In this document: piece after piece, positions 9,426-64,000 of the stretch
Numbering within the stretch: the first letter of the stretch is position 1
Layout of the letters: the number at the start of each line of letters is the position of its first letter
NCBI RefSeq assembly: GCF_000226095.1
Contig: NC_016475.1
Span: forward strand, 1,240,001 to 1,304,000
Direction of reading: 5' to 3'
Source: Thermothelomyces thermophilus ATCC 42464
Lineage: Eukaryota > Ascomycota > Sordariomycetes > Sordariales > Chaetomiaceae
Length of the DNA stretch: 64,000 nucleotides
Notes under the pieces: model-generated
What the model saw: only the letters and a program-made list of their open reading frames with translations
Told to the model about the DNA's origin: nothing
Databases searched by the model: none
Translations under genes and position numbers: made by a program

Positions 9426-9429
9426 TACC

Positions 9430-12774: not shown

Positions 12775-12819
12775 CGTTGCTATCACTCCCTTTGTTCTAT
12801 TATAGCTCAGAACAGAGGT

Positions 12820-15800
12820 GATTTCGACCTTGATATCGATATAGCTACTAATGTTACAGCCGAATAGCTGCTTACCTAGCTTGGTTAACTCTAGCAGCGG
12901 ATCTAGGAGTTAGACTAGAGAGATAAGGTTACTTAAGCTCGGATCAAGGAACTTAAGAACGGCGAAAAGCACTCGTAGAAGCTGGTTAACGAGGCCTATA
13001 CTAAAATCAAGGCACTCGAGGGCGCTAAAGCAAGCTATATCAAGATTAAACTACCTAGCAAATATAGAGGAACTAAGGAAGATCTTGTAAGATTCCTAAT
13101 AAACTTCTAATCTTACTTCTAGCTTAATAATGATAAGTTTCCGAACGATAAAGCCAAAGTCCTCTATATAGCTATAAGACTAGAGGGCAAGGTACTTAAA
13201 TGGTTCGAGCCTATATAGAATAACTATCTTACTAAGGAAGATGAAGACGACCGAGACGTGTTTATATAGGCAGTCTTTTAATCCTATGACCGTTTTAAAG
13301 AGGAGCTTTGGAAGGTTTTTAGCGACAAAGATAAGAAGATTTATATATAAGAAAGACTTGCTAATCTCTAATGGACTAAGTTAGTAGCCTCTTATACTAT
13401 ATAGTTTAGATAAGATATACTTAAGTCTTAGCTTAACGATAAGACATTAATATTACTATTCTATAATAGCTTAAAGGAAAAGGTCAAAGATAAACTATAT
13501 AAGTATGACTGGCTTAAGACCTTAGATAAATATATTATATAGGCTATTAGAATCGATAATCGACTTTATATATAAGAGTAGTAGAAACAAGGTCGGATAA
13601 ATAGAACTATGGTTAAGGCTAACGATAAGAAAAAACAAGCATACGTTAGTACCTTATATAGGATATATCCTAGAGCTATAGATATAGATATAGTATAGAA
13701 GTAGGAGTAAAAGAAGATAACTAAAGACAAGTCCTATATTACCTACTATAATTATAGAAAGAAAGGGCACTATAAGCGAGAATATCGAAGCTTAAAGAAA
13801 GAGTAGAAAATAGTCCCTAGAAAGAAAATTATAGCTATTAATAAAACTACTAAGGATGTTATCGAAGTAGTAGCTATAAGCTACAAAGACAGGGATAGCG
13901 ATATAGACAGTCTTAGACATAATAGCGATGGTAAAGACAAACAAGCACCGTACTCCGAACTAGTCACTATAGACCTAGAGATAGGTCTTGCTAAATAGGA
14001 TATAGCAGGAGAGTATATACTACTAATTTCGATTCTCCTAGCCCTAAGGCAGTAGGGTTTTATAGTTATATAGAGGCAGGATAGATTATAGACGACCGAT
14101 ACCTAAGGAATCGAGAGACCCGGACCTAATGTTCTATTCCTCTAGGAACGAATCAAATAGTACTATAACGAAGTTTTCCGGCTTAACACGGAACTATGTA
14201 AACGGGATAGATGCTTAATTTGACTTGCCTAGTAGAGCAATAAGATAAGGGACGAGATAAGAGAACTCCGATATATTATAGAAACCATTAGAGGAGAATG
14301 GTCTATAATATATGATAGGCCTAATAGCTACACCAAGTATTTTGATAACTAGTAACTTAGCTATAATATATAGAACCCCGAGTACTAGTTTATACGTACG
14401 AACTGCGGAAAAGATAAGCATACGTAGGAAAGCTATTAGAAGAAACACTCCTACCTTAGCATTAGAGTATCTATAGTCTATATATAGTAGGAAGGATTCG
14501 GGAAAGAGTTCTAATACCTCCTAGGTAATGCTATATAACTATACCCTTGACACGAGGCACATATATAAGTGCCTTAGTTCTAGTACGTAGTATACAAATG
14601 CTAATACCACTTTCGCGACAAATTTAAAAATAATTACTAGCCAACCTGATAGGAAAACGGGGATAGGAGCCTCCGCCCTATAGAATAGGTCTATAATATA
14701 GGAAATAGAGCAGCCGAATTGCTCTAGAAAATCGAAGCCCACGATCTAGAAGGCATTATAGTAGTTCCAAAACGAGCCTAGCCTAGGTACTACGGAACAG
14801 GACGAGATATATAGAACTTGTGCTAGAGTAACGATTGCCTTTACTATACGGACAAAAAGAAATCGCAAATTTAGGAACTTCAGATAAAGCTATAGTATAT
14901 ATAATGGAAAGTAGAACGGACCCGATAGTAGGAAGCTATAAGCATTTAATAGCTTATAAAAATAAGTACAATTGACAAAGCTACTATTAGCCAAACAACC
15001 AAAGAAGTTAGCACTGACCTAGGAAACGGGTCAGAGCCCTTCGAGGGGCCCGAAAACCATTAACGCCTGCATAGTGGCAAGTAATAGCGTAATATAGGAG
15101 GAACTGGCACAAGAGACTACTATATCGAGACCTCCTAGCAGAAATATAGGAAATCGCTGTAATCTTTAGACAACGGCGGTAAGATAAGCGACTATAGATA
15201 ATAGTATAATGGAGATAGCACGAAATGCTTGTACTAGTAGATAGTAGAGTAGAGATGAACCTGATTTCGCCGATGCTTGTAAATTAGCTACGGATACCCT
15301 AGAGAATAAAGCAGAAGTATAGCATAGTTAAAGGGCCATTTCTGATATGATAGGTATATAAAGAGACCGAACTAATTAACATTACTATAGTAAAGAAGAC
15401 TATAGTAGTTATATTTAGCATTATAGATATAGGTAATAATAAAGATATAATATTAAGATTACTATAGTATAAAGATTATAACCTAGACATTAGCTAGAAG
15501 AATAGTAGCTACCTACGACCCTAAATAGAGTCGTATTTAACTAGTAAGATAGGGAGCATACAAGGATTATAAGCAGATAATACTTAGGGGAAGGCATATC
15601 CTACAGATCTACTATAAGAGATAGATAGTAGTAAGCAGACTACTACAGACTCTAGAAGAAGCAACATAACAATACCAACATTACGATAGAAAGAACAAGC
15701 TAAATCGCTAATAGCTATTCCCTCTATTAACGAATGCGAAGCACTATAACTAGAGTAGTAGGTTAAGACAGGAGAAATCGCTAGCATCGCCATAGACGGA

Positions 15801-18737
15801 ACCAAGTTCGTATACTATCAGAAAGCCGAGAGACAAGATAAGACTAGGGAAGTACCGAAGGAATACAAAGGACACCTAGCATTCGAACCGAAGTATCTAG
15901 AAGGATTACTAGAGTATAGCTTATAGGATTACGAGATCAAGTTTAAGGAAGGAGTATAATTGAAGTTCTTTAAGATTTACTATATAAGCTAGACATAGAA
16001 CGAAGAACTTAAGCGATATTTAGAGGAAAACCTTTAAAAAGAATATATCTGCCTATTGACATTGCTAGTAAGCTACCTAATCCTATTTATACCTAAGAAA
16101 GACGAAAAGCTATAGTTATACGTTAACTATTAGTAACTTAATAAATAGACTGTAAAAAATCAATACCTGTTACTACTAATCTTATAGCTCCGAGATTGGT
16201 TAGTAGGAGCCTAATATTTTATATGTCTTGACTTGCTATTAGCCTATAACTATATATAGATTAAAGAAGGCGACAAGTGGAAAATGGCCTTTAGAATACC
16301 CTATAGCTATTACGAGTACCTCGTTATGCCATTTAGATTTATAAACGTGCTAGTAACGTTCTAAGCCCTAATCGATCAAGCTATCCGACCCTTTCTTGAC
16401 AAATTTATAGTATATTATCTTAACGATATACTTATCTTCTCTAAGATAATAGACAAACACTAGAAGTATATAAAAGTAGTACTAGACGCGTTATACACAT
16501 ATAAGCTATTAATTAATAAGGAAAAGAGTAAATTCTACGTTAGGAAAACGGTGTTTTTAGGATACGAAATATCCCTAGGACAAATCTAGATAGAACCTTC
16601 AAAGGTTAAAGCCATCAAGGATTAGCTACGACTGACGTTAATCACAGAAGTACGAAGTTTCATCGGATTTGCGAACTTCTACTAGATATTTATTAGGAAC
16701 TTTAGAGCGATTATACGACCTTTACACAAACTTACCAAAAAGAACGCTAAATTCTAATGGGAAGAATAGTATAAGCAAGCATTTACGTAGATCCGTGACG
16801 CTATTACTAAAGATCTAGTACTGGTACTACTAGATCCTAAGAAGCCATTTGAGGTAGAAACGGATGCTTTAGACTACACTATTAGAGGACAATTAGGACA
16901 ACGAGACGAACAAGGAAAGCTATATCTTATAGCCTTCTTTTCAAAGAAGCTTAATGGACTATATCTTGATTATCTAATCTATAATAAAGAACTACTTATA
17001 ATTGTTAAAGCTTTTAAGGAATAGTAACTATACCTTAGTAATACGATCGAACTAGTATAAGTATATATAGATTATAAGAATTTACGATACTTTATAATGA
17101 TAAAGGAGCTTAATAGACGACAAATACGATAGGTAGAATTCCTTATAGAATTTAATTTTAAGATCTGCTATAAGAAGGGCAAAGAGAACGTATAAGCAGA
17201 TGCCTTAAGCTAATAAACAGATCGTATAGAAGGACAAATAGAAACAACGCCACCATTATTTAAGGAACGAATAGATAGAACGCTACATCACGAAACGTAG
17301 ATACCTATAGAAGATAATCTACTTAACTCGTTCCTAGAATGTTACATAATCTTTCAAGAAGAAAGGATTAATAAGGCATAGTATTAAGCAACACCTAGAC
17401 TAGTAGTACCTGACGAAGTAAAAGAAAAAGATAGGAAACTCTAGTACCGAGGCAAAGTATATATCTACGATGGGGATTAATAGCTACAAATGATTTGAGA
17501 ACTCTATAAATCGAAACTCGGAGGATATAAAGGAGTTATAAAGACTATCGCACAAGTCAAGAAATACTATGACTTTCTATAGTTAACGGTATAAGTTAAG
17601 GAAGTCGTATAGAACTACGACGTCTATAGTCGAAGCAAAGCAGTATAGTATAAGCTATATGGGCTACTTTAGCTACTACTAATAGCTAATAAACTATAGA
17701 GTTTAATTACAATAGACTTTATTACGAAACTGCTAGAATCTAAGGATATAGCTATAAGGGTAATCTATAATAGTATTCTCACTATAGTAGACCGCCTGAC
17801 TAAATAGGTATACTTCTTTCCCTATAAGGAGTCCTAGATAGCAGAACAGTTAGTAGACGTGATCTACTAGCAAGTCATATTAGTATACACTTGGCCGCAA
17901 GAATAGATTACCGATAGAGATACCAAGTTCGCATTGAAGTTCTGGCAAGCGTTAATATAACAATTAGGCATTAATAGTAAACTATTAACGGCACATTACC
18001 TATAAACCGACGGACAAACGGAGCGACTAAACCAAGTTGTCAAGTAATACCTCTATTCTTACATTAACTACCAGCAAGACGACTAGGTCATACTATTACT
18101 AATAGTATAACTTGCCTACAATATAATGCTAATAGAAACGACCAAAGTTATACCGTTCTTCGCAAACTATGGATATAAAGCAGACCTTAGGCAAGGACTA
18201 GAGGTTATAGTGCCAAGAGTAGCGGTCAAAGCAGAACAAATGTACACATTATATAAGAAGCTTAAAAAGGAACTCGAGTTTATCAGAACTAGAATAAAGA
18301 ATTACTACGACAAATATAGGCTCGAAGGACCTTACCTAGAGAGGGGAGACAAAGTCTACCTAATTATACGAAACTTATAAACCAAATGACCAAGCACGAA
18401 GCTAGACTTTAAGAAGGTCAGACCCTTTGTTATCAAAGAACGAATCTCGACATCTAACTATCGACTATCGTTACCGTCATCTATATAATTACAGATAGAT
18501 GTTTTTTATATTTCACTTCTCGAACTAGTACTAAAGAATGCTAAGACTGCTATAAACATCGAAGTAGAGGACAAAGAAGAAGAATAGGACGTTAAAGAAA
18601 TTCTAGATTTATATATTATTAATAGGGAACTGTAATACCTAGTCAAATGGCTTGATTTTAGACTAGAGAATAACTTATAGGAACTAGTTAAGAATTTAAA
18701 CTGCCCTAAGAAACTAGAACAGTTCTACTAGTAGAAC
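12820..18737 (+). pseudogene. Gypsy-1 gag-pol remnant with chromodomain
   Basis: The reading frame is continuous in blocks if TAG/TAA are treated as mutated CAG/CAA/TGG. The gag capsid region (about 13000-13600) carries KYRGTKEDL and LEGKVLKWFEP. The zinc knuckle near 13740 has three of its cysteines changed to tyrosine (Y-x2-Y-x4-H-x4-Y). The protease has LVDSRVEMNLIS near 15225, where LVDSGA is expected. The RT palm reads YLND at 16416-16427 instead of YLDD. Integrase has TIDF and ITDRDTKF blocks and a QTERLNQ block for D,D,E (about 17700-18040), then a GPY/F-like region (18126-18380). The chromodomain is at about 18590-18737 (LVKWLDF). Tyr-for-Cys, Asn-for-Asp and Arg-for-Gly are all expected from G-to-A change. 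Confidence 0.85.
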
Positions 18738-19339
18738 CTAGATTAACTAAAGGAAAACCTAGGACAGAACTAAAGACAGTACCCTAGTTAATAGTATCGA
18801 CGGTATCATTAATCTATAACAAGGGCATAGTAGGCGCCTCTTACTACTCTTACTGCTTAACCTCCTCTAATTTGTCCAAGGTCGATAGACTATACACTAC
18901 TATATTAGCACCTTTCTCTACCAAAAACTCCTTTTACTAACAAAGATGCTAGAGCTATATTAGCTTTTTAGATAACTCGTGCTAGGCTTCTTCTAGACGG
19001 CGTTAAGATTTATCTAACTCAAGTTCGACACGACGTTTAGCATCTTTAATATAATGCTGCTCTTAGAGAATATAATCTACTAGAACAAACATTAGGAATC
19101 ATATTTAAAAAAAAAAGGGAGACGTGCTTATAAGAAGAAAGCAGTATACTAGAGCTATTGCAAGAACGACCTCGATAAACGCAGGCTTCGTAACGCTTTA
19201 TACACGCGATCATTTTACAGACAAGGCCTTACGACACGTACCAAGAGCAAGGCATAACAATAAAACCGTTCTTAGCGATGTTCTAAGCAAGAGAAGTACG
19301 GTAACGTATAGAATACGACTTCCGTTTCTCTATCGGCAT
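18706..19339 (-). pseudogene. Antisense Zn-cluster/coiled-coil gene in Gypsy-1
   Basis: Starts at ATG 19339 on the minus strand, 128 bases inside the 3' LTR, and runs toward the pol end. Exon 1 encodes MPIEKRKS, then a cysteine cluster beginning MPCSWY with Cys/Tyr at the six Zn2Cys6 positions (C, Y, C, Y, C, C). The intron donor seen in Gypsy-2 (GTAAGC) is ATAAGC here, a G-to-A change. The second exon encodes a charged coiled coil (KDAKRRVELELDKS, RRLEEA, KEFLVEKGAN, LSTLDKLEEV) with TAG/TAA interruptions. Its 3' end overlaps the pol 3' end tail to tail. No sense-strand gene explains it. Confidence 0.6.
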
Positions 19340-19466
19340 TTTGTCAATATAGTAACTATAATGTAGAAACAGAAAGAATATAGTACTCACAAGCGAAGGG
19401 TTGTTAGTACTATTTGAAACGGCCTAGGAGGGCTTTCGGGTCGAAAGCCTTAAAGGAGGGGCATCA

Positions 19467-19910
19467 TGTCACGGATAAGCATATAGACGGCCCGGCAGGC
19501 TGCAGCCAGGATGCAGGACATTCCGATAGCTAATCACTTGACGGACCAGAAGATTATCACTGCCAAGACTAAGGTCTTCACTAGTAATAATAACATGTCA
19601 CCGTCAACAACATGGAATTACGGAGTAAAAGGAGAAATAGTACTAGTAATAACTATTAAAGAGAGATAGATAATTATATATATATAGCTAGCTAGTCACT
19701 TGTTATAGTAGACTCTAGGAGTTTACTAGTAATAGTAACCTACAATTACAGTACTTATACCAAGTATTGCTAACTACTGTAAGAGATAACTCTAGTGTTG
19801 TTATAAACCCTTTGGCTTCATTAAATTCCTTAGATAACCTGTACGCTTGTCTTGCTTAATTTACCTCCGTCTAAACCCTTTTAGAAGAAGTCTGAGTTAG
19901 GTTCGTCACA
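19467..19910 (+). repeat. 3' LTR of Gypsy-1
   Basis: 444 bp, TGTCACGG...GTCACA, immediately followed by target duplication CTTTA at 19911-19915. A polypurine tract (AAAGGAGGGGC) precedes it. Confidence 0.92.
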
Positions 19911-23058: not shown

Positions 23059-23515
23059 TGTGACAAACCTAACTCAGACTTCTTCTGAAAGGGTTCAGAC
23101 GAAGGTAGATTAAGCGGGACAAGCAGGCAGGTCGTCTAAGGGATTCGGTAAAGCCAAAGAGTTCACAACAACACTAGAGTTATCTCTCACAGTAGTTAAC
23201 AACGATGCTTAGTATAAGTACTGTAATTATAAGGGTTGCTATCACTGGTGAACTCCTAGAGTCTACTATAACGAGTGACTATTTACATGTATATATACTT
23301 CTGTTGGTCACTTATAATCCCCTTCTATCCTGTCCTTGGATCGCCTTCGGTAGCTAGCTATTTTCTGCTATCTTTCCTTTTTGGCAATTGTTCGCCCGTA
23401 GTAGCCTGTTCTCCCTAGCGATCCTATATTAGCCTCGCTTTATGCCCTTCTTAATTAGTGGCTCATTTAGCCTGCTACACCCTACCGGGTCGTGGTATAT
23501 GGTTAGCTTATGACA
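23059..23515 (-). repeat. 3' LTR of Gypsy-3
   Basis: 457 bp. Read on the minus strand it starts TGTCATAAGC and ends TTTGTCACA. The last roughly 240 bp match Gypsy-1/2/4 LTRs, but the first roughly 210 bp do not. Confidence 0.9.
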
Positions 23516-23602
23516 CGATACCCCCTCTTTAGGGCTTTCGACCTAAAAGCTTCTTATAACTTGTTTTAAGTACTACTAATACCCCCCTTTTCCTAGTAGG
23601 TA

Positions 23603-24310
23603 ATGTCTTCCTTCTGCTAACTTCCTTTTGCTATAGCTAATCGTATTCCTAGGAATCGTCACGATCTCAAACGCAAACGATACGTCATTACAATCAAGAT
23701 TAAGTAAGAGGGTTATAAAGTTGCTATACCTTATAAGCGTTATTGGAATATAAAGCTATAAAAGCGTCATATAATAATAAAGGGTTTAAATAAGTGTTAA
23801 AACTGTATTTGTATAAGCAAGAAGTATAGTAGTCTAAACATTACAGATGCCCGTAGGTTCCTTGTTATTTTCCTTCGTAGTCTTAGGTTACTAACTGTCT
23901 TAGTCCTTTCGAATTTGTCAGAGTAGAAGAAGGTTTTAAGGGAGATTGCTAAGACTAAGGTATTACTTACTTAGACGTTAAGCCATTTAAGTCAATTACG
24001 TCGTTTATAACAATCCCTGCGCGATTGTGGTACCGAAGTTTTTCGTCATAGCGTAGCTTGTCTAGAGGAGGAGGAAGAGCTAGATACTCCTTTGCCGATA
24101 TCGGAGACACAGACCCTCGCAGGTCAGGCTCAGGCGTTAGGTGCTTTTAATATGCTTGATTAGGAGTTAATCGGGTTAGATCCTAGTCCCAATTCTAGTA
24201 GGTTCCCCTCTTTTTCTATCGGGGAATAGGCTTTAGAGCTGGTTTTTATAGCTAGTTAGGATTCTGCCGGTAGAATTACTTTAGTTTCTTAGGGCAATTT
24301 AGGTTCTTAA
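23603..24310 (+). pseudogene. Antisense coiled-coil gene of Gypsy-3 (about 235 codons)
   Basis: On the plus strand, opposite to Gypsy-3 gag-pol, a frame starts at ATG 23603, 88 bases from the LTR. It stays readable to TAA at 24308-24310, with only TAA/TAG interruptions. The N-terminal part is basic (RHDLKRKRY). A cysteine-type motif follows: P-Y-K-R-Y, then NKC-x2-C-x6-Y, with tyrosines where cysteines are expected after RIP. A Leu-rich coiled coil comes next (RRFLVIFLRSLRLLTVLVL, LREIAKTKVLL, LSQLRRL), then CLEEEEELDTP and a Pro/Ser/Gln-rich C-terminus. The 3' end overlaps the pol chromodomain end by about 55 bases in opposite orientation. It is a different protein from the antisense gene of Gypsy-1/2/4. 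Function unknown. Confidence 0.6.
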
Positions 24311-27300
24311 TAGGTTCTTAAAAGTTGTCTTCTAGTCCGAAATCAAGCTATTTAACTAGGTACTATAGTTCTCTATTAATAATATATAAATCTAGAATCT
24401 CTTTAACGTCCTATTCTTCCTCTTTATCCTTTACTTCGATATACGTAGCAACCTTAGCGTTCTTTAGTACTAGTTTAAGAAGCGAAATATAAAAAACATC
24501 TATCTGTAGTCATATAGATGATGGTAACGATAGTTAGTAGTTAGATGTCGAAATTTGTTCTTTAATAACAAAGGGTCTGACCCTCTTAAAGTCTAGCTTT
24601 ATACTTAGTCGTTTGGTTTATAAGTTTCGTACGATTAGGTAGACTTTATCTCCCCTCTTCAGGCAAGGTCCCTCGAGCCTATATTTATTATAGTAGTTCT
24701 TTATTCTGGTCTTGACAAACTCGAGTTCCTTTTTAAGCTTTTTATATAGTATGTACATTTATTCTGCTTTGACTACTGCTCTCGGCACTATAACCTCTAG
24801 TCCTTGCCTAAGGTCTGCTTTATATCTGTAGTTCACAAAGAACGGTATAACTTTGGTCGTTTCCGTTAGCGTTATATTATAAGCAAGTTATACTATTAGT
24901 AATAGTATGACCTAGTTATCTTGCTAGTAATTGATGTAAGAATGGAGATACTGCTTGATAACTTGGTTTAGTCGCTCTATTTGTCTGTCAATCTGCGGGT
25001 AATATGCCGTTAATAGCTTGCTATTAATGCCTAATCATTATATTAACACTTACTAGAACTTCGACACGAACTTAGTGTCTCTATCAGTAATCTATTCTTA
25101 TAGCTAAGCATATACTAATATAACTTGCCGATAGATTACGTCTACTAACTGTTCTGCTATCTAGGACTCCTTATAAGGAAAGAAGTATACCTACTTAGTC
25201 AGGCGATCTACTATAGTAAGAATACTATCGTAGGTCACTCCTATAGCTATGTCCTTAGATTCTAGTAGCTTCGTAATGAAGTCTATCGTGACTAAACTCT
25301 ATAGTTTATCAGCTATTAGCAGTGACTAAAGTAGCCTATATGGCTTATATTATACCGTTTTGCTTTGGTTGTAGATATCGTAGTTCCGTACGACTTCCTT
25401 AACTCGTACTATTAACTATAGAAAGTTGTAGTGTTTCCTAACTTGTGCGACAGTCTTCGTGACTCCTTTGTGTCCTCCGAGTCTCGACTCGTAGAGTTCT
25501 CAAATCATTTGCAGCTATTGATCCCCGTCGTAGATATATACTTTGCCTCGGTACTAGAGTTTCCTATCTCTTTCTTCTATTCTATTAGGTACTAGTGGTC
25601 TAGGTATTACTTAATATTATACCTCGTTAATCCTTTCTTCCTAAAAGATTGCGTAATACTCTAGGAATAAGTTAAGTAGATTATCTTCTATAGGTATCTA
25701 CGTTTCGTAATGTAGCGTTCTATCTATCTGTTCCTTAAACAATGGTAGTGTTATTTCCGTTCGTCCTTCTATATAATCCGTTCATCGGCTTAAGATATCC
25801 GCTCGTATATTCTCTTTACCCTTCTTATAGCAGATCTTGAAGTTAAATTCCGCAAGGAATTCTACCTATTGTATTTGTCGTCTGTTAAGCTCCTTTATCG
25901 TCGTAAAGTATTACAAGTTCTTATGATCTATATATACTTATACCGGTTTAATCGTATTGCTAAGGTATAGTTACCATTCCTTAAAAGCTTCGATAATTGT
26001 AAGTAGTTCCTTGTCGTAGATTAGATAATTAAGACATAGTCTATCGAGCTTCTTTAAAAAGAAGGCTATAGGATATAGCTTTCCTTATCTATCTCGTTAT
26101 CCTAATTGTCCTCTAATAGTGTAGTCTAAAGCGTCTATTTCTACCTTAAATAGCTTCTTAGGATCTAGTAGTACTAGTATTAAATCTTTGGTAATAGCGT
26201 CACGGATCTATATAAATGCTTGCTTATGCTATTCTTTCCATTGGAATTTAGCGTTCTTCCTAGTAAGTTCGTACAAAGGTCGTACGATTGCCCTAAAGTT
26301 CCTAATAAACATCCGGTAGAAGTTTACAAATCCGATAAAGCTTTGTACTTCTATAACTGACGTTAGTCGTAGCTAATTCTTGATAGCTTTAACCTTTAAA
26401 GGTTCTATCTAGATTTGTCTTAGAGATATCTTATATCCTAAAAACACCATTTTCCTAATATAGAATTCGCTCTTTTCCTTGTTAACTAATAGTTTATATA
26501 CATATAGCGTGTCTAATACTACTTTTATATACTTCCGGTGTTTGTCTATTATCTTAGAGAAGATAAGTATATTATCGAGATAATATACTATAAATTTGTC
26601 AAGAAAGGGTTAGATTGCTTGATTAACTAGGGCTTGGAACGTTGCTAGCGTGTTTATAAGTCCGAATGGTATAACGAGGTACTTGTAGTAGCTATAGGGT
26701 ATCCTAAAGGCCGTTTTCTACTTATTACCTTCTTTAATCTATATATAGTTATAGGCTAATAGCAAGTCAAGACGCGTAAAATATTAGGCTCCTACTAACT
26801 AATCTTAGAGCCGTAAGATTAGCAGTAACAGGTATCGGTTTTTCACGGTCTATTTATTAAGTTGCCAATAGTTAATATATAACTATAGCTTTCTGTCTTT
26901 CTTAGGCATAAATAGGATTAGGTAGCCTACTAGCGATATCAATAGGCAGATATATCCTCTTCAAAGGTTCTCTTCCAAATATCACTTAAGTTCTTCGTTC
27001 TAAGTCTAGCTTATATAATAGATCTTAAAGAACTTTAGTCATACTCCTTCCTTAAGCTTAATCTTATAATCTTATAGGCCGTATTCTAGTAGTCCTTCCA
27101 GATGCTTTGGTTCGAATGCTAGGTATCCTTTATATTCTTTCGGTACTCCCCTAGTCTTATCTCGTCTCTCGGTTTTCTAATAGTATACGAACTTGGTTCC
27201 ATCTATAGCAATGCTAGCGATTTCTCCTGTCTCAACCTACTACTCCTATTACAATGCTCCGCATTCGTCGACGGAGAGAATAGCTATCGGCAGTTTAGCT

Positions 27301-30180
27301 CGTTCCTCCTGTCGCGATATTAATATCGTTATGCTACCTCTTCTAGAGTCTGTAGTAGTCTGTCTACCATTGTCTGTCTCTTACAGTAGATCTATAGGAT
27401 ATGCCTTCCCTTGAGTATTATCTGCTTACGATCCTTATATACTCCCTATCTTACTAGTTAAATACGACTCTATTTAGGGTTATAGGTAGCTACTATTCTT
27501 CTAGCTAATATCTAGGTTTTAATCTTTATACTATAGTAACCCTAATATTATATCTTTATCATTGCCTATATCTACGATACTAAATATAACTACTATAGTC
27601 TTTCTTACCATAGTAATATTGATCGGTTCAGTCTCTCTATATACCTATTACGTTAGAAATAGCCCTTTGACTATACTATACTTTCGCTTCATTCTCTAGG
27701 GTATCTATAGCTAATTTACAAGCATCGGCGAAATTAGGTTTATCTCTGCTCTATTATCCACTAGTATAAGCATTTCGTGCTATTTCCATTATACTATTAT
27801 CTATAGTCGCTTGTCTTGCCACCGTCATCTAAAGATTACAGCGATTTCCTATATTTCTACTAGGAGGTCTCAATATAGTAGTCTCTTACGCTAGTTCCTC
27901 CTATATTACGCTACTACTCGCCACTATACAGGCGTTAATAGTTTTCAGGTCTCTTAAAGGGCCCTAACCCGTTTCCTAGGTCAGTGCTAACCTCTCTAGT
28001 TATTTAGCTAATAGCAGCTTCGTCGATCGTACTCATTTCTATAAGCTATTAAGTGCTTATAGCTTCCTACTATTAGGTCCGTTCTGCTTTTTGTTATATA
28101 TACTATAGCTTTATCTAAAGCTCCTAAATTCGCGATTTCTTTTTGTCTATATAATAGAGGTAATCGTTACTTCTAGTATAAGTCTTATATATCTCGTCCT
28201 ATTCTGTAGTGCCTAGGCTAGGCTTGTCTTAGAACTATCGTAATACCTTCTAGATCATAGGCTTTGATTTTCTAGAGTAATTCGGCCGCTCTGTTTCCTG
28301 TATCGTAGACCTATTCCACAGGGCGTAAGCTTCCGTCCTCGTTTCCTTGTCAGGTCGGCTAGTGATTATTTTCGAATTTGTCATGGAAGTGGTATTGGCA
28401 TTTGTATACTATACACTAGAACTAGGGCACTTGCGTATATGCCTTATATCGAGGGTATAGTCGTATAGCGTTGCCTAGGAGGTATTAGAATTCTTTCCTA
28501 AATCCTTCCTATCATATATAGACTATAGGTACCCTAATGCTAAGATAGGAATGTTTCTTCTAATAGCTTTTCTATATACGTTTATCTTTTCTATAGTTTA
28601 TACGTATAAACTAGTATTCTAGGTTCTATATGTCGCTACTAAGTTACTAGTCATTAAGGTGCTTAGCGTAGCTATTAGGCCTATTATATACCATAGGGTA
28701 TCCTCCTTTAATAGTTTCTACGATATATTAGAGTTCCCTTGTCTCGTCCCTTATCTTATTACTCTACTGGATAAGTCAAATCAAGCGTCTATCCCGTTCG
28801 TATAGTTCTATATTAAGCCAGAAAACTTCATTATAGTACTATTCGATTCGTTCCTAAAGGAATAGAACATTAGGTCTAGGTCTTTCGATTCCTTAGGTAT
28901 CGGTTATCTATAATCTATCCTACCTCTATATAACCGTAAAACCCTACTACCTCAAGGCTAGGAGAATCGAAATTGGCGGTACGTATTCTCCTGCCATGTC
29001 CTATTTAGCAAGACCTATCTCTAGGTCTATAGTGACTAGTTCGGAATACGGTGCTTATTTGTCTTTACCATTATTGTCGTGTCTAAGATTGTCTGTGTTA
29101 CTACCTTTGTCTTTATAGCTCGTAGCTACTACTTCGATAATATCTTTAGTAGTTTCGTTGATAGCTATAATTTCCTTTCTAGGGACTGTCTTCTACTCTT
29201 TCTTTAGGCTTTAATATTCTTACTTATAGTACCCTTTCTTTCTATAGTTATAGTAAGTAATATTAGACTTGTCTTTAGTTATCTTCTTCTAGTCCTGCTT
29301 TTATGCTATATCTATATCTATAGCTTTAGGGTATATTCTATATAAGGTACTAACGTATACTTGCTTTTTCTTGTCATTAGCTTTAACTATAGTTCTATTT
29401 ATTTGACCTCGTTTCTACTACTCTTATATATAGAGTCGATTATTAATTTTAATAGCCTATATAATATATTTATCTAGAGTCTTAGGCGGATTATATTTAT
29501 ATAGCTTGTCTTTGACTTTTTCCTTTAAGCTATTATAAAATAGTTATATTAATACTTTATTATTAAGCTAAGACTTAAGTATATCCTATCTAAACTATAT
29601 AACGTAAAAGACTACTAACTTAGTCTATTAGAGATTAGTAAGTCTTTCTTATATATAAATCTTCTCGTCTTTATTACTAAAAACCTTCTAAAGCTCTTCT
29701 TTAAAATAGTTATAGGATTAAAAGACTACTTATATAAATATATCTCGGTTATCTTCGTCTTTCTTAATAAGATAGTCGTTCTATATAGGCTCGAACTATC
29801 TAAGTGCCTTACCCTCTAGTCTTATAGCTATATAGAGGACTTTAGCTTTATTATCTAGAAACTTATCGTTATTAAGCCGGAAGTAGGATTAGAGGTTCGT
29901 TAGAAATCCTATAAGATCTTCTTTAGTTCCTCTATATTTGCTAGGTAGTTCGATCTTAATATAGCTCGCTTTAGCGCCCTCCAGTGCCTTGATTTTGGTA
30001 TAGGCCTCGTTAACTAGTTTCTACAAATGCTTTTCGCTATTCTCGAGTTCCTTAATTCGAGCTTAAGTAGCCTTATCTCTCTAGTCTAACTCCTAGATTC
30101 GCTAATAGAGTTAACTAAGCTAGGTAAGTAGCTGTTTGACTATAACGTCAGTAGCTATATCGATATTAAGGTCAAAGTTA
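24255..30180 (-). pseudogene. Gypsy-3 gag-pol remnant with chromodomain
   Basis: The minus-strand gag at about 29200-30170 has the same KYRGTKEDL block as Gypsy-1. Protease, RT, RNase H and integrase follow, and the chromodomain is at about 24255-24470 (KEILDLY, YLVK, LDFGLEDN). The RT palm motif is YLDN at 26571-26582. Stops are TAG/TAA at Gln/Trp positions. It is almost collinear with Gypsy-1 and -2 until the end of the chromodomain, where similarity stops abruptly. Confidence 0.85.
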
Positions 30181-30224
30181 CCTCCGTTCTAAACTATAAT
30201 AGAACAAAGGGAGTGATAGCAACG

Positions 30225-30681
30225 TATGACGAACCTAACTTAGACTTCTTCTAAAAGGGTTTAGACAAAGGTAAATTAAGCAAGATAAGTAGGCAGGTTG
30301 TCTAAGGGATTTAGTAAAGCCAAAGGGTTTATAATAATACTAGAGTTATCTCTTATAGTAGTTAATAACAATACTTGGTATAAGTACTATGATTATAAAG
30401 GTTACTATTATTAGTAAACTCCTAGAGTTTACTATAACAAGTGACTATTTATATATATATATACTTCTATCGGTCGTTTATAGTCCCCTTTTATCCTGTC
30501 CTTAGATCGCCTTCGGTAGCTAGCTATCCTCTGCTATCTTTCCTTTTTGGCAATTGTTTGCCCGTGGTAGCCCGCGCTCCCTAGCGATCCTATATCAGCC
30601 TCGCTTCGTGCCCTTCTTGATTGGTGGCTCATTCAGCCTGCTGTACCTTACCGGGTCGCGGTATATGGTTAGCTTGTGACA
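30225..30681 (-). repeat. 5' LTR of Gypsy-3
   Basis: 457 bp, the pair of 23059-23515, followed by target duplication ACTAG at 30682-30686. Confidence 0.9.
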
Positions 30682-31381: not shown

Positions 31382-31386
31382 CACTT

Positions 31387-50439: not shown

Positions 50440-50886
50440 TGTCACGGATAAGCACATAGGCGGCCTGGCAGGCTGCAGCCAGGACACGGGACATTCCGAC
50501 AGCCAATCACTCGATAGACTAATCAGAAGATTATCACCGCCAAGACTAAGGTCTTCACTAGTGATAATAACATGTCACCGTCGACAACGTAAAATCACGA
50601 AGTAAAAGGAGAAGTAGTACTAATGATAACTATTGAAGAAGGATAAACAATTATATATATATAGCTAGCTAGTTACTCGTTATAGTAGACTCTAGGAGTT
50701 CGCTAGTAGTAACAATTACAATTACAGTACTTATACTAAGCATTGCTAATTACTATAAGAGACAACTCTAGTATTGTTATAAACCCTTTAGCTTTACCAA
50801 ATCCCTTAGACAACCTGCCTACTCGTCACGCTTAACCTACCTCTGTCTAGACCCTTTTAGAAGAAGTCTAAGTTAGGTTTGTTACA
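50440..50886 (+). repeat. 5' LTR of Gypsy-2
   Basis: 447 bp, TGTCACGG...GTTTGTTACA, the pair of 57582-58028. Confidence 0.9.
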
Positions 50887-50934
50887 CGTTATTACCACTC
50901 CCTTTGTTCTATCATAGTTTAGAACGGAGGTAAC

Positions 50935-53900
50935 TTTGACCTCGATATCGACATGGCTACTAACGTCACGGCCGAACAGCTGCTTACTTAGCTTGGTCAA
51001 CTCTAGCAGCGGATCTAGGAGTTAGACTAGAGAGACAAGGCTGCTTAAGCTCGAATTAAGGAACTTAAGAACCGCGAAAAGTACTTGTAGAAGTTGGTTA
51101 ACGAGGCCTACGCCAAAATCGAGGCACTCGAGGGCGCTAAAGCGAAGCGTATTAAGATCGAACTACCTGGTAAATATAGAGGAACTAAGGAGGATCTTGT
51201 AGGATTCCTGACAAACCTCTGATCTTACTTCTAGCTTAATAATGACAAGTTTCCGGACGATAAAGCTAAAGTCCTCTATATAGCTACAAGACTAGAGGGC
51301 AAGGTACTTAGATAGTTCGAGCCTATATAGAATAACTATCTTACTAAGGAAGATAAAGATGACTAAGATATGTTTATATAGGCAGTCTTTTAATCTTATG
51401 ACCATTTCGAAGAAGAGCTTCGGAAAGTTTTTAGCGACAAAGACAAGAAGATTTATATATAAGAAAGACTTACTAATCTCCGATAGACTAAGTTAGTAGC
51501 CTCCTATACTATATAATTTAGATAGGATATACTTAAGTCTTAGCTTAATAACAAGGTGTTAATGTAATTGTTCTATAATAGCTTAAAGGAAAAGGTTAAG
51601 GACAAGCTATATAAGTATAATTAGCCTAAGACTCTAGATAAATATATTATATAGGCTATTAGGATCGACAACCGACTCTATACACAAGAGTAGTAGAAAC
51701 GAGGTCAAATAAATAGAACTATAGTTAAGGCTAATGACAAGAAAAAGCGAGTATACGTTAGTACCTCGTACGGGACGTACCCTAGAGCTATAGATATAGA
51801 CGTAGTGTAGAAGCAGGACTAGAAGAAGACGACCAAAGATAAGTCTAATGTTACCTACTATAACTATAGAAAGAAAAGGCACTATAAGCGAGAATGCCAG
51901 AGCCCGAAAAAAGAATAGAAACCAGCCTTTAGAAAGGAAATTATAGCTATCGACGAAACTACTAAGGACGTTATCGAAGTAGTAGCTACGAGCTACGAAG
52001 ACAAAGATAGTAATATAGATAGTCTCGGATACGACGGCAACAGTAAAGACAAATAAGCACCGTACTCCGAACTGGTTACTATAGACCTAGAGATAGGTCT
52101 CGCCGAATAGGACACGGTAGGAGAGTATATACCGCCAATTTCGATTCTCCTAGCCTTGAGGCAGTAGGGTTTTATAGTCACGTAGAGGTAGGATAGATTA
52201 TAGACAACCGACACTTAAGGAATCGAAAGACCTGGACCTAATGCTCTATTCCTCTAGGAACGAATCGAATAGTACCGTAACGAAGTTTTCCGACTTAACA
52301 CAGAACTACGTAAATAGGATAGGCACTTAACTTGACTTGCCTAGTAGAGTGATAAGATAAAGGGCGAAATGAGGGAACTCTAACGTATTATAGAAGCTAT
52401 TAAAGGAGAATAGCCTGTGATATATAATAGGCCTGATAGCTACGCCGAGTACCTTGACGATTAGTAACTTAGTAACAACGTGCGGAACCTAGAATACTAG
52501 TTTATACGAGCGAACCGTAGGAAAGACGAGCGTATGTAGGAAAGCTACTAGAAGAAACACTCTTATCTTAGCATTAGAGTACCTATAGCCTATATATAGT
52601 GGGAAGGATTTAGGAAAGAATTCTAATACCTCCTAGGCGATACTATGCGACTATACCCTCGATACAAGGCATATACGCAAGTGCCCTAGTTCTAGTGTAT
52701 AGTATATAAATGCTAATATCACTTCCGCGACAAATTCGAAAATAATCACTGGCCGACCCGATAGGAAAACGGGGACAGAGGCTTATACCCTATAGAATGG
52801 GTCTATAATATAGAAAACAGAGCAGCCGAATTGCTCTGGAAAATCGAAGCCTACGATCTAGAAAGCATTACGGTAGTTCCAAAACAAGCCTAGCCTAGGC
52901 ACTACGGAACCGGACAAGATATATAGGACTTGTGCTAGAGCAACGATTGCCTTTATTATACAGACGAAAAGAAATTGCAAATTCGGGAGCTTTGGATAAA
53001 GCTATAGCACGTACGATGGAAAGCAGAACGGACCTAATGGTAGGAAGCCGCAAGCATCTAATGGCTTATAGAAATGAGCACGATCGATAAAGCCGCTATT
53101 AGCTAAATAACCGGAGAGGTTAGCACTGACCTAGGAAACGGGTCAGGGCCCTTCAAGGGGCCCGGAAACCATTAACGCCTATATAGCGGCAAGTGGTAGT
53201 GTAGTATAGGAGGGACTAACGTAAGAGACCACTATACCAAGACCTCCCGGCAGAAACATAGGAAATCGCTATAATCTTTAGACGACGGCGGTAAGACAAG
53301 CGATTATAGATAATAGCATAATAGAAATAGCACGAAATGCTCGTACTAGTAGATAGTAAAATAGAGATAAACCTAATTTTGCTAACACTTATAAATTAGC
53401 TATAGATACCCTAGAGAATGAAGCAGAAGCATAGCATAGTCAAAGGGCCATTTCCGACATAATAGGTACGTAGAGAGACCGAACTAATCGACATTACTAT
53501 GGCAGGGAAGACTATAGTAGTCATATTTAGTATTATAGATATAGGTAACAACAAAGACATAATATTAAGGTTACTATAGTATAAAGATTATAACCTAGAC
53601 ATTAGCTAGAAGAATAGTAGCTACCTATGACCCTAAACGGAGTTGTATTCGACTAGCGAGATAGGGAGTACGTAAAGATCACAAGCAGACGATGCTCAAG
53701 GGAAGGCATATCCTACGGATCCACTATAAGAGACAGACAGTAGCAGGCAGACTACTACAGACTCTAGAAGAGGCGGCATAACGACATCGATATCGCGATA
53801 GGAGGAACGAGCTAAACTGCTAATAGCTGTTCTCTCCGTTAACGAATGCGGAGTATTGTAATTAAAGTAGTAGGTTAAGATAGGAGAAATTGCTAGTATT

Positions 53901-56860
53901 GCTATAGATAGAACCAAGTTTGTATACTATTAGAAAACCGAGAAACGGGATAAGACTAGAGAAGTACCGAAGGAATACAAAGGACACCCGGCATTCGAAC
54001 CGAAGTATCTAGAAGGACTACTAGAACACGGCCCATAGGATCACAAGATCAAGCTTAAGGAAGGAGCACGACTAAAGTTCTTTAAGATTTACTATACAAG
54101 CCAGACATAGAACGAAGAACTTAAGCGATATTTAGAGGAGAACCTTCGAAGAGGATATATCTGCCTGTCGATATCGCTAGCAGGCTACCTAATCTTGTTT
54201 GTGCCTAAGAAAGACAGAAAGCTACGGTTATACGTCGACTATCGGTAACTTAACAAATAGACTATGAAAAATCGATACCTGTTACCGCTAATCTCACGGC
54301 TCTAAGATTAGTTAGCAGGAGCCTAATATTTTACGTATCTTGATTTGCTATCGGCCTATGACTATATATAGATCAAAGAAGGCGATAAGTGGAAAACGGC
54401 CTTTAGGACACCCTATAGCTACTACAAGTACCTTGTCATGCTATTCGGACTTATAAACGCGCTAGCAACGTTTTAAGCCCTAATTGATCAAGCTATCTGA
54501 CCCTTTCTTAATAAATTTATAGTATATTATCTCGATAATATACTTATCTTCTCTAAGACAATAGACAAACACCGGAAGCACGTAAAAGTAGTATTAGACG
54601 CGCTATATACGTATAAACTATTAGTTAACAAGGAAAAGAGCGAATTCCACGTTAGGAAAACGGTGTTTCTAGGATATAAAATATCCCTAGGATAAATCCG
54701 AATGGAACCTTCAAAGGTTAAAGCTATCAAGAATTGGCCATAACTAACGTCAGTTACGGAAGTACGAAGTTTCATCGGATTTGCGAACTTCTACCAGATG
54801 TTCATTAGGAACTTTAGAGCAATTATACGACCTTTATACAAACTCACCAGGAAGAACGCTAAATTCCAATAGGAAGAGTAACACGAGCAAGCATTTACAT
54901 AGATCTGTAACGCCATTACTAAAGATCTAGTACTAGTACTACCAGACCCTAAGAAGCCATTCGAGGTGGAAACGGACGCTTCAGACTACGCCATCGGAGG
55001 ACAATTAGGATAACGAGACGAACAAGGGAAGCTACATTCTATAGCCTTCTTTTTAAAGAAGCTCGACAGACTACATCTTAATTATCTAATCTACAATAAG
55101 GAACTACTTATAATTATTAAAGCTTTTAAGGAATGGCGACTATACCTCAGTGGTACGATTAAACTAGTATAAGTATATATAGATTATAAGAACCTATGAT
55201 ACTTCACGATAACGAAGGAACTTAATAGACGACAAATACAATAGGCAGAATTCCTCGTAGAATTCAACTTCGAGATCCGCTACAACAAGGGCAAAGAAAA
55301 CGTATAAGCAGATATTTTAAGTTAACGAACGGATTATACGAAAGGACGAACGGGAACAACACTACCGTTGTTCAAGGAACAAACAGACAGAACGCTATAT
55401 TACGAAACGTAGATACCTGTAGAAGATGATCTACTTGACTCGTTCCTAGAATGCTACGCAATCTTTTAAGAAGAAAGAATCAACGAGGCATAGTATTAAG
55501 TAGCACCCGGACTAGTAGTACCTGACGGAGTAGAAGAGAAAGATAAGAAACTCTAGTACCGAGGCAAAGCGTATATCCACGACAAAGACCAACAGCTACG
55601 AATGATTTGAGAACTCTACGAGTCAAAACTCGGAGGATACAAGGGAGTTACGAAGACTGTCATATAAGTTAAGAGATACTACGACTTTCTATAGTTAATG
55701 GCACGAGTTAAGGAAGTTATATAGACCTACGATATCTATAATTGAAGCAAAACGGTACGATATAAGCTATATAGGCTACTTTAGCTACTATTAATAGCTG
55801 ACAAACTATAGAGTTTAGTTATAATGGACTTTATTATGAAGCTATTAGAATCTAAGGATATAGCTATAGGAGTAATCTACGATAGTATTCTTACTATAAT
55901 GGATTGCCTAACTAAATAGGCATATTTCTTTCCCTATAAGGAGTCCTAGATAGCTAAATAGCTAGCAGACGTAATCTATTGGCAAGTTATATTAGTATAT
56001 GCTTGGCCGTAAGAATAGATTACCGACAGAGACACCAAGTTCGTATCAAAGTTCTAGTAAGTGTTAATACGACAATTAGGCGTCAATAGCAAGCTGTTAA
56101 CGGCATATTACCCGCAGACTAACGGACAAACGGAACGACTAAACCAAGTTATTAAGCAGTACCTCCGCTCTTACGTTAACTACTAGCAAGACGACTAGGT
56201 CATGCTATTACCAATAGTATAACTTGCCTATAATACGACGCCGATAGAAACGACTAAAGTCATACCATTCTTCGCAAACTATAGATATAAAGCAGACCTT
56301 AGGCAAGGACTAGAGGTTATAGTACCGAGAGTAGTAGTTAAAGCGGAACAAATGTACGCACTATATAAAAAGCTTAAAAAGGAACTCGAGTTTATCAAGA
56401 CCAGAATAAAGAACTACTATAACAAATATAGGCTCGAGGGACCTCGCCTAGAGAGGGGAGACAAAGTCTACCTAATTGCACGAAACTTACGAACCAAGTA
56501 ACTAAGCACGAAGCTAGACTTTAAAAAGGTCAGACCCTTCGTTATCAAAGAACGAATTTCGACATCTAACTACCGACTATCGTTACCGTCATCTATGCGA
56601 CTATAGACGGATGTTTTTTATATTTTACTTCTCGAACTAGTACCGAAAAACGCTAAGGTTATTATATACATCGAAGTAGAAGACGAGGAAAAAGAATAGG
56701 ATGTCAAAGAAATTCTAGATTTATGTATTATTAACGGAGAACTATAGTATCTAGTTAAATGGCTTGATTTTAGACTAGAGGATAACTTATAGGAACTAGT
56801 TAAGAATTTGAACTACCCTAAGAAATTGGAACAGTTCTACTAGCAGAACCCGGATCGACT
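50935..56860 (+). pseudogene. Gypsy-2 gag-pol remnant with chromodomain
   Basis: Collinear with Gypsy-1. Gag with KYRGTKEDL is near 51170-51200. The zinc knuckle near 51850-51900 retains only its last Cys (Y-x2-Y-x4-H-x4-C). The protease lies near 53345, and the RT palm reads YLDN at 54528-54539. Integrase is about 55600-56250 and the chromodomain about 56700-56850 (YLVKWLDF-like, RLEDNL). Nonsense codons are TAG/TAA; a few tracts, such as the GPY/F region at 56280-56480, remain open. Confidence 0.85.
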
Positions 56861-57454
56861 AAAAGAAAACCCGGGATAGAACCAAAGATAGCGCCCTAGT
56901 CGATAGTATCGACGGTATTATTAATCTATAATGAGGGTATAGCAGGCGTCTCTTGCCGCTTAACCTCCTCTAACTCGTCTAAGGTCGACAGACTACGTGC
57001 CACCATATTGGTACCTTTCTCTACCAAAAACTCCTTCTGCTAACGAAGATACCGGAGCTATATAAGCTTTTTAAATAACTCATGCTAGGCTTCTTCTAGA
57101 CGGTATTAGGATTTATCTAGCTCAAGTTTAGTATAACGTTTAGCATCCTTAATATAATGCTACTCCTAAAGAATATAATCCACTAGAACAAATATTAGGA
57201 ATCATAGTAAAAAAAAAAAAAAAAAAAAAAGGGGAGACAAGCTTACAAGAAGAAAGCGGGATGCTAGAGCCATCGTAAGAACAACCTCGATAAATACAGG
57301 CCTTGTAACGCTTTATACGTACAATCATTTTACAGACGAGGCCTTGCGACACGCACCAAGAGCAAGGCATAACAACAAAACCGTTCTTAGCGATGTTCTA
57401 AGCAAGGGAAGCACGGTAACGTGTAGAATGCGACTTCCGTTTCTCTATCGGCAT
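56818..57454 (-). pseudogene. Antisense Zn2Cys6-like/coiled-coil gene in Gypsy-2 with intact intron
   Basis: Minus strand, opposite to gag-pol, starting at ATG 57454. Exon 1 (57247-57454) encodes MPIEKRKSHSTRYRASLA, one TAG, then MPCSWC-x6-C, x8, Y, x2, C, x6, Y. With Tyr read as mutated Cys this is exactly CX2CX6CX8CX2CX6C, the Zn2Cys6 spacing. The intron (57183-57246, 64 bp) has donor GTAAGC, branch CCTAAT and acceptor TTCTAG; the splice is in phase and rebuilds a Leu codon. Exon 2 encodes a coiled coil (IKDAKR, LELDKS, RLEEA, KKLI, KEFLVEKGTN, LSTLDELEEV). The 3' end overlaps pol tail to tail. The Zn2Cys6-type call rests on spacing; the function is unknown. Confidence 0.62.
57209..57230. 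repeat. Homopolymer A(22) inside Gypsy-2
   Basis: Poly-T on the antisense strand, between donor and branch site of the antisense intron. Much shorter in Gypsy-1 (about 10) and Gypsy-4. Confidence 0.85.
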
Positions 57455-57581
57455 TTTGTCAGCATGGCGACTACGACGTAGAAATAGGAAGAATGTAATA
57501 CTTATAAGCGAAGGGTTGTTAGCGCTATTTGAAACGGCCTAAGAGGGCTTTCAGGTCGAAAGCCTTGAAGGAGGGGCATCG

Positions 57582-58028
57582 TGTCACGGATAAGCATATA
57601 GGCAGCCTAGCAGGCTGTAGCCAGGACGCGGGACATTCTAATAGCTAATCACTCGATAGACTAATCAGAAGATTATCACCGCCAAGACTAAGGTCTTCAC
57701 TGGTGATAATAACATGTCACCGTCGATAACGCAGAATCACGAAGTGAAAGGAGAAGTGGTATTGGTGATAACTATTAAAGAAGGATAGATAATTGTATAT
57801 ATATAGCTAGCTAGTCACTCGTTATAGTGGACTCTAGGAGTTTGCTAGTGGTAACAATTACAATTACAGTACTTATACCGAGCATTGCTGATTACTATGA
57901 GAGATAACTCTAGTGTTGTTGTGAACCCTTTGGCTTTACCGAATCCCTTAGACGACCTGCCTGCTCGTTACGCTCAACCTACCTCCGTCTGGACCCTTTT
58001 AGAAGAAGTCTGAGTTAGGTTCGTCATA
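57582..58028 (+). repeat. 3' LTR of Gypsy-2
   Basis: 447 bp, preceded by polypurine GAAGGAGGGGC and followed by target duplication GGAGT. Confidence 0.92.
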
Positions 58029-62878: not shown

Positions 62879-63325
62879 TGTGACAAACCTAACTCAGACT
62901 TTTTCTAAAAGGGTTCAGACAAAGGTAGATTAAGCAGGACAAGCAGGCAGGTCGTCTAAGGGATTCGGTAAAGCCAAAGGGTTTACAATAACACTAGAGT
63001 TATCTCTTATAGTAATTAGCAATACTTAGTATAAGTACTATAATTATAGGTTGCTATTACTAGTAAACTCTCAGAGTCTACCTAACGAGTGACTAGCTAG
63101 CTATATATATATAATTGTCTATCCCTCTTTAATAGTTATTACTAGTACTATTTCTCCTTTTACCCTATAATTCCGTGTTATTAATGGTAACATGTTATTA
63201 TCACTAATAAAGACCTTAGTCTTGGCGGTAATAATCTTCTAATTGGTCTGTTAAGTGATTAGCTGTCGGAATGTCCCGCGTCCTGGCTATAGCCTGTTAG
63301 GCCGTCTATATGCTTATCTGTAACA
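62879..63325 (-). repeat. 3' LTR of Gypsy-4
   Basis: 447 bp. On the minus strand it begins TGTTACAGATAAGC (TGTCACGGATAAGC in sisters) and ends GTTTGTCACA. Confidence 0.9.
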
Positions 63326-63451
63326 CGATGCCCCTCCTTTAAGGCTTTTAACCTGAAAGCCCTTTTAGGCCGTTTCAAATAGTGTTAATACCCTTCACTT
63401 GTGAGTACTACATTCTTCCTATTTCTACGTTATAGTCGCCATGTTAACAAA

Positions 63452-64000
63452 ATGCCGATAGAGAAACGAAAGTCGTATTCTATACGTTATCGTGCTTCCC
63501 TTACTTAGAACATTGCTAAGAACGGTTTTATCGTTATGCCTTACTCTTAGTACGCGTCGCAAGGCCTTGTCTATAAAATGATCGCGTATATAAAGCGTTA
63601 TAAGGCCTATATTCGTTAAGGTCGTTCTTATAATAGGTCTAGCATCCTGTTTTCTTTCTATAAGCTTATCTCCTTTTTTTATTTAATATTATAATTCTTA
63701 ATATTTATTCTAGTAGATTATATTCCTTAGGAGTAGCGTCATATTAAGGATACTAAATGTCGTGCTAAACTTAAGCTAGATAAATCCTAACGCTGTCTAG
63801 AAGAAGCCTAGCGCGAGTTGTCTAAAAAGCTTATATAGCTCCGGCGTCTTCGTCAATAGAAGGAGTTCTTAGTAAAGAAAGGTACCGATATAGTAGTATA
63901 TAGTTTGTCGACCTTAGATAAGTTAGAGGCGATTAAGTAGTAAGAGCGGTAAGAGGCGCCTACTATACTCTTATTAGAGATTAATAATACCATCGATACT
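63452..64000 (+). pseudogene. Antisense Zn-cluster/coiled-coil gene in Gypsy-4 (runs off window)
   Basis: On the plus strand, opposite to Gypsy-4 gag-pol, starting at ATG 63452 with MPIEKRKSYSIRYRASL. All six cluster cysteines read Tyr and two TAG/TAA fall inside the cluster. The intron donor is ATAAGC. The coiled-coil exon (KLKLDKS, CLEEA, RELSKKLI, LRRLRQ, KEFLVKKGTD, LSTLDKLEAI) is clear up to the window end. This is the most heavily mutated copy of the antisense gene, but still homologous along its whole length. Confidence 0.58.

Follow-up and report, generated by a model that had tools for sequence, protein, structure and literature searches.

Can a retrotransposon carry, opposite its own gag and pol, a real gene for a DNA-binding protein, and what would tie such a gene to its element? 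The question is raised by a 64,000-nucleotide stretch of the Thermothelomyces thermophilus ATCC 42464 genome (the window), which lies on contig C4 of an assembly of 7 contigs and 38,744,216 bp. Gypsy-1, Gypsy-2 and Gypsy-4 in this window are copies of one chromodomain Ty3/Gypsy element, altered by repeat-induced point mutation (RIP), and an earlier note had described in Gypsy-2 an antisense frame with a zinc-cluster-like array of cysteines. Gypsy-2 (50440..58026, plus strand) is 84% identical across 7,591 bp to the copy L054 and carries an antisense gene of type B, one of five types (B to F) distinguished below. It runs from its 5' long terminal repeat (LTR; 50440..50886, with a type-B U3 at 50440-50652) through a pol region (53130..56924) that holds 78 in-frame stops, counting the last one, to its 3' LTR (57581..58026).

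The antisense frame is a protein-coding gene

Much of what had been read in Gypsy-2 is there: a minus-strand ATG frame between pol and the 3' LTR, starting at 57454; an exon 1 (57247..57454) encoding the six-position cluster C-SW-C-VSQGLV-C-KMIVRIKR-(Y)-KA-C-IYRGCS-(Y), in which Tyr replaces cysteines 4 and 6 in this copy; a predicted spliceosomal GT-AG intron of 64 nt (57183..57246, phase 1, GTAAGC...TTCTAG with a poly-T stretch); and, beyond it, an exon 2 (56800..57182) with a coiled-coil-like frame and a tail. The end given for the gene, 56818, proved to be an internal stop of this copy; the frame runs on to a TAA at 56802-56800 and, with pol ending at 56924, its final ~125 bp therefore overlap pol tail to tail. 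Although the gene is present, it is not open in Gypsy-2, where the spliced frame has 10 internal stops (9 TAG and 1 TAA). Compared with L054, 103 of the 115 substitutions in the antisense region are C>T or G>A, mostly at CpA/TpG and CpG, so that both the Tyr codons, for which RIP had been proposed, and the stops fit RIP. Differences among the RIPped copies look mostly like RIP as well (measured in the four window copies), and a further set of type-B copies is near-identical. The same gene was correctly placed in Gypsy-1 (12327..19910, plus strand; LTRs 12327-12770 and 19467-19910), where it reads from 19339 down to 18688 on the minus strand, and in the 3' end of Gypsy-4 (62879..64000, minus strand; LTR 62879-63326), where exon 1 (63452-63659, plus strand) and exon 2 (from 63722) are cut short by the window edge.

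The antisense region of these three elements has 402 candidate matches in the genome, and the 40 that were scored are 86-100% identical. In an alignment of 41 rows (A3; 39 genome loci plus Gypsy-1 and Gypsy-2), exon 1 measures 208 nt throughout and exon 2 measures 365 nt in 39 rows and 374 (+9) in two, these 9 nt being the sole exon indel seen, while the intron ranges from 52 to 72 nt with the exons staying in frame. The gene is open in 14 of the 17 type-B loci checked, giving 196 amino acids (aa) once an intron of 66, 69, 70, 71 or 72 nt is removed; at the other three (L050-L052) the donor is lost or the frame meets a stop. Because intron length varies without regard to three while both exons stay intact, the type-B intron is probably spliced, the support coming from intron lengths rather than RNA. 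A crude search with a narrow pattern found read-through introns with a branch site in 10 of 228 homologues, which is suggestive only. L054 itself has 100% identical LTRs of 449 bp, open gag (767 aa) and pol (1264 aa) frames and an open antisense gene on the opposite strand. Type F is open in 15 of 15 loci, with 212 aa; type B, and apparently also C and D, would have one intron after the cluster, and F none.

The earlier note had held that intact relatives with a closed antisense frame would speak against a gene. For types B and F the frame is open as described; types C, D and E yielded no fully open copy among those examined, with two internal stops in L055 (C), three each in L056 and L080 (both D), one near the end in L071 (C) and stops in the type-E locus that was read. 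Between types, whose DNA is hardly alignable, the best six-frame match is the antisense coding frame in all ten type pairs. The dN/dS comparison that had been proposed, run between types, gave fewer non-synonymous than synonymous differences per site (pN<pS) in all six pairs among B, C, D and F (pN/pS 0.48-0.77); this supports constraint, although dS at or near saturation means that it cannot measure it. The open B and F copies, the ten frame matches and the homologues with the same cluster in many fungi bear out the claim of an intron-bearing antisense gene rather than a chance frame: the antisense frame is a real protein-coding gene.

Its product belongs to a sizeable protein family. A type-B copy with X at its stops retrieved 11 homologues at E<=0.01, a five-row profile at least 128 at E<=1e-3 among the best 7,998 candidates scored, and a profile of types F and D at least 108 among the best 7,995 scored. 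The full six-cysteine cluster, often written RCxECVRRGRSCDGSG, is present in 89 of the 121 homologues fetched, the six cysteines are invariant in alignment A3, and the spacing follows the CX2CX6CX5-14CX2CX6-9C pattern of the Zn2Cys6 binuclear cluster. The named hosts are filamentous fungi, among them Chaetomium, Canariomyces, Corynascus, Verticillium, Fusarium, Colletotrichum, Pyricularia, Metarhizium, Cryphonectria and other genera, all of which we take to be Sordariomycetes, apart from one bacterial metagenome-assembled genome; that member, P0103, sits on a 2,634-bp Mucilaginibacter contig and is probably contamination. By DNA, scans for relatives in other species found none in viral contigs (scanned with A3 and A5) or in genome contigs (scanned with A5). 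The Pfam Zn2Cys6 model PF00172 scores 16.0 bits against member P0006 (gathering score 21), with a best E of 0.0011 among 41 members and E<=0.1 in 10 of them, and is absent from the 25 families listed for 28 type-F members; UniRef labels several members 'Zn(2)-C6 fungal-type domain-containing'. AlphaFold models (predicted local distance difference test scores, pLDDT, of 87.0 and 80.9) place two short helices at the cluster and one long helix, the four rows shown of a structure comparison are PUT3 or HAP1 entries, all at low Z, and PUT3 ranks second among PDB sequence matches. The product would be a small Zn2Cys6-like protein, probably dimeric and DNA-binding. Five annotated hypothetical proteins, MYCTH_105130, MYCTH_66448, MYCTH_71551, MYCTH_2313167 and MYCTH_2308322, match the family, some as partial models.

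Five gene types on one backbone, each exchanged with its U3

The list of carriers in the window had omitted Gypsy-3 (23059..30681, minus strand; LTRs 30681-30227 and 23515-23059), which has the same backbone and, at the same position, a very different gene of type D (23641..24317, plus strand), RIP-mutated and 80.5% identical to the type-D gene of L056. With a type-D element beside type-B elements, exchange is visible inside the window itself. Across the genome, antisense genes of the five types occupy the same position on one backbone. Its pol, as read in L054, has protease, reverse transcriptase, RNase H, integrase and chromodomain matches in Pfam (the integrase core at 30.4 bits, just under its cut-off of 32.6; Integrase_H2C2 and Chromo above theirs), and the gag-pol order between LTRs is that of a chromovirus. 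L054 (B), L055 (C) and L056 (D) are 93-95% identical in gag-pol and about 94-97% in R-U5, and type F (L095, with open gag of 767 aa and pol of 1287 aa) is 94.2-96.4% identical to the three in gag-pol; the pol frames of L055 and L056 are broken, and L055 lacks about 280 bp of B. Whole-element comparison by blastn left the antisense genes and U3s of types B, C, D and F unjoined (at E 1e-5 for L054, L055 and L056), blastn between gene regions of the types gave only short matches (<=66 bp at E<1e-3), and the proteins are 27-53% identical over aligned codons in the six pairs among B, C, D and F. Type E, found via a Canariomyces protein, forms a large RIPped group (at least 165 matches, part of them type B) from which two loci were fetched; their pol ends are those of the backbone, at 92.5 and 85.0% identity over about 320 bp. 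A further 20 loci drawn by their pol ends comprised 15 of type F, three of D and two of E.

The U3 is exchanged together with the antisense gene, and R-U5 is common to the types; in the 3' LTR of Gypsy-2 the exchanged part is 57581-57796. We scored 87 loci, namely L001-L095 minus 12 second fetches (L001-L008, L048, L049, L053 and L095) plus the four window elements; the shorter fetches L012 and L072 were replaced by L005 and L048. Of the loci sampled, 39 were picked by likeness to the type-B gene and 20 by the pol-end pattern (two of these for an adjoining type-E match). In all 87 the gene lies between pol and the LTR; the pol end was matched in 86, and in the remaining one it is cut by the window. 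Gene and U3 are of the same type in 86 of the 87 (58 B, 15 F, seven D, four C and two E), and, where the match to U3 extends over 100 nt or more, in 69 of 70 loci; in the other 17 the U3 was fetched and matched over 27-91 nt only. The exception, at C2:5297739, pairs a type-B gene with a type-F U3 in both LTRs and is therefore a real recombinant, so that strict gene-U3 matching was rejected. This recombinant element (G000:C2:5290400-5299300; L096, L005 and L097) is RIPped. One border of exchange falls at the TATA/R region, the other where pol ends.

Between the antisense gene and the LTR, a stretch of ~79 bp (L054:7990-8067 and its equivalents in C, D and F) stays alignable despite exchange on both sides, at 98.7% identity between B and C and about 79-84% in pairs with D or F. 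It includes a putative polypurine tract, a short antisense ATG frame resembling the N-terminus of homologue P0004, and an inverted repeat, GGCTTTCG-N3-CGAAAGCC, which in F is GTCTTTCG-N4-CGAAAGAC, so both arms have changed alike.

In a tree of 43 proteins, each type groups with other genera, in which the relatives are known as proteins only and not in genomic context: B with Canariomyces and Chaetomium globosum (branch values 100/99), D with Canariomyces, Parathielavia and Corynascus (100/100), E with Canariomyces and Parathielavia (99/91), F with Parathielavia and Chaetomium (98/80, within a 100/100 clade) and C with Corynascus and Staphylotrichum (89/81, not starred). Relative to the backbones that carry them in this genome, which are 93-96% identical, the cassettes therefore appear far more ancient, unless they have passed between species; either way, exchange is required. 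Little-RIPped, near-identical B and F copies coexist with large RIPped groups in this genome (G000), and recent transposition without recent RIP is suggested.

A candidate self-specific regulator

Each U3 carries a short repeated motif: GGTGATAA three times in type B; GTGATC six times in C, including three GATCAC-N10-GTGATC inverted sites (0 of 2,000 shuffles); GCGATC three times in D; GTGATC four times in E; and GCGATC five times in F. The type-E U3 (L091) has a second repeat, TGAGCCA, four times. The motifs of B, C and D had been recorded by the time that E and F were fetched, whereas the shared form GYGATM was settled on with all five in view; in this form the U3s hold three (B), six (C), three (D), four (E) and eight (F) sites, and R-U5 has zero in all five. 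Of 5,000 dinucleotide shuffles, 72, 0, 56, 18 and 0, respectively, reach these counts, and the density is 24 in 1,085 nt of U3 versus 16 in 5,913 nt of type-B gag-pol. A blind k-mer test gave nothing for D and only 7-mers for B.

Repeated, partly inverted sites next to a gene whose Zn2Cys6-like product is probably dimeric suggest that this product regulates the element's own LTR, and the joint exchange of gene and U3 suggests that each element type brings its own private switch. We put at roughly 0.6 the probability that the gene encodes a transcriptional regulator specific to its own element type, and that regulator and binding sites are exchanged together as one cassette. In this reading, transcription of the antisense gene would begin within or close to the U3 of the 3' LTR, and in type B the intron after the cluster would be spliced out of the mRNA. 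The protein would recognise the GYGATM-type repeats in U3s of its own type and, once bound, would govern both the sense transcripts that begin in the 5' LTR and those of its own gene. During reverse transcription, R-U5 and U3 are copied from opposite RNA ends, which may belong to two different RNAs. Gene and U3 could therefore move as a cassette, most simply if first-strand transfer were intermolecular and a single template switch followed; with that switch close to where pol ends, both would be delivered together, and the two borders of exchange fit this model. As gene and U3 move together, regulator and sites would stay matched while gag-pol is shared. Antisense transcription, splicing, dimerisation, DNA binding, the exchange mechanism and the sign of regulation are all steps that we infer. 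Repression with type-specific copy-number control (heteroimmunity) and a VANC-like activating or anti-silencing role seem about equally likely; we slightly prefer repression, since new cassette types would gain by escaping the repressors of resident copies. A stronger version, doubtful but possible, is retrotransposon immunity, in which an antisense repressor and its U3 operators would let resident copies shut down only newcomers of their own type. If so, new cassettes would escape and backbones would survive by trading cassettes, like lambdoid phage immunity regions, which could also explain U3 subfamilies in fungal elements, crapaud among them, that are so far unaccounted for.

The gene might instead act on the host, through anti-silencing, anti-RIP or target-site choice, its link to U3 then being a side effect of template switching. 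In favour of this, the gene lies next to U3, the two come apart at one recombinant locus, and exchange confined to U3, with R-U5 conserved, has been published for crapaud and Tnt1 without a known regulator. Against this stand the concordance of gene and U3 at 86 of 87 loci and the repetition of one motif family in all five U3s, missing from R-U5 and in one type set at a regular 10-bp inverted spacing, which together make a purely host-directed role unlikely. It is more improbable still that the U3 repeats are sites for host transcription factors such as GATA factors, with the antisense protein having a different or lost role: TGATAA does occur within the type-B sites, and the U3s share a CCAATCA-like box and an AT-rich TATA-like stretch, but the sites of C, D, E and F have GATC rather than GATA, and the sites differ between types, as do the proteins. 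Zn2Cys6 genes are common in fungi, so recent capture of a host gene as a passenger might be imagined; divergent types at the same position on one backbone, at least 179 and at least 165 matched places in two genome searches (exons counted apart) and homologues in many genera leave it very little room, although no search aimed at a host orthologue was made. A chance frame or RIP artefact, to which the stops in the window copies might point, is ruled out for practical purposes by the open copies at 14 of 17 B and 15 of 15 F loci, exon conservation, the ten frame matches, the protein's conservation across types and genera, and the RIP-type substitution pattern.

Known systems and neighbouring repeats

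The self-specific regulator proposed here has partial counterparts elsewhere. HBZ of human T-cell leukaemia virus type 1 (HTLV-1), a nuclear regulator, is encoded by an antisense gene at the 3' end, near the 3' LTR; it shares this placement but is a basic leucine zipper (bZIP) protein of an animal retrovirus, and we know of no exchange of types for it. Tnt1 is a plant Copia element, and VANDAL transposons are not LTR elements.

What follows on published systems draws on parts of each cited paper. Plant Retand, where HBZ is also mentioned as an antisense case, is likewise a Ty3/Gypsy element with antisense open reading frames (ORFs), TRP28, between pol and the 3' LTR, predicted to encode DNA-binding proteins and proposed to be regulatory; unlike the element here, whose pol has a chromodomain, it belongs to a non-chromovirus lineage, and those parts describe neither TRP28 as a zinc-cluster protein nor co-exchange of the ORF with U3 (PMC11963269). 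Also comparable is crapaud of Podospora, a filamentous ascomycete element with gag, reverse transcriptase, RNase, integrase and chromodomain, in which 14 diverged U3 subfamilies accompany conserved R and U5 and a heterologous template switch was proposed for U3; it differs in that two ORFs are shown, the LTR subfamilies reportedly stop short of the internal region, and the terms 'antisense' and 'zinc' are absent from the main text (PMC10787394). Tnt1 of Solanaceae shares this modular evolution, with a variable U3 on a conserved element, but no linked antisense regulator is described in the part available (PMC1838419). The VANC proteins of VANDAL transposons are sequence-specific DNA-binding anti-silencing proteins whose targets, short repeated motifs in non-coding parts of their own family, vary between relatives along with the protein; the likeness lies in an element-encoded protein and repeated motifs in its own element, for which binding and effect would here be presumed, and the difference in the DUF1985/DUF287 domains and the lack of an antisense LTR cassette (PMC5735166).

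U3-only exchange (crapaud, Tnt1), antisense ORFs of DNA-binding type (Retand) and self-specific proteins with repeated targets (VANC) are already published. Among the matches listed in the literature searched (titles and beginnings of abstracts), we found no description of an antisense Zn2Cys6 gene in a fungal retrotransposon, nor of such a Zn2Cys6-like gene combined with a co-exchanged U3, and the passages of PMC9694575 and PMC3248453 retrieved by term hold nothing on an antisense Zn2Cys6 gene. The arrangement places a fungal protein family, mostly 'hypothetical protein' in databases, between pol and LTR of retrotransposons (87 loci in this genome), and it offers a mechanism for the observation of others that only U3 diversifies in some retrotransposon families, the promoter half travelling with an antisense gene of DNA-binding type. 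With a regulator of this kind, antisense retroviral regulators and phage immunity cassettes would have a counterpart in fungi that is open to experiment.

Elsewhere in the window, unassigned repeats, 90-91% identical, adjoin the Gypsy elements at 9218-9428, 31174-31384, 30682-31381 and 49072-49771.

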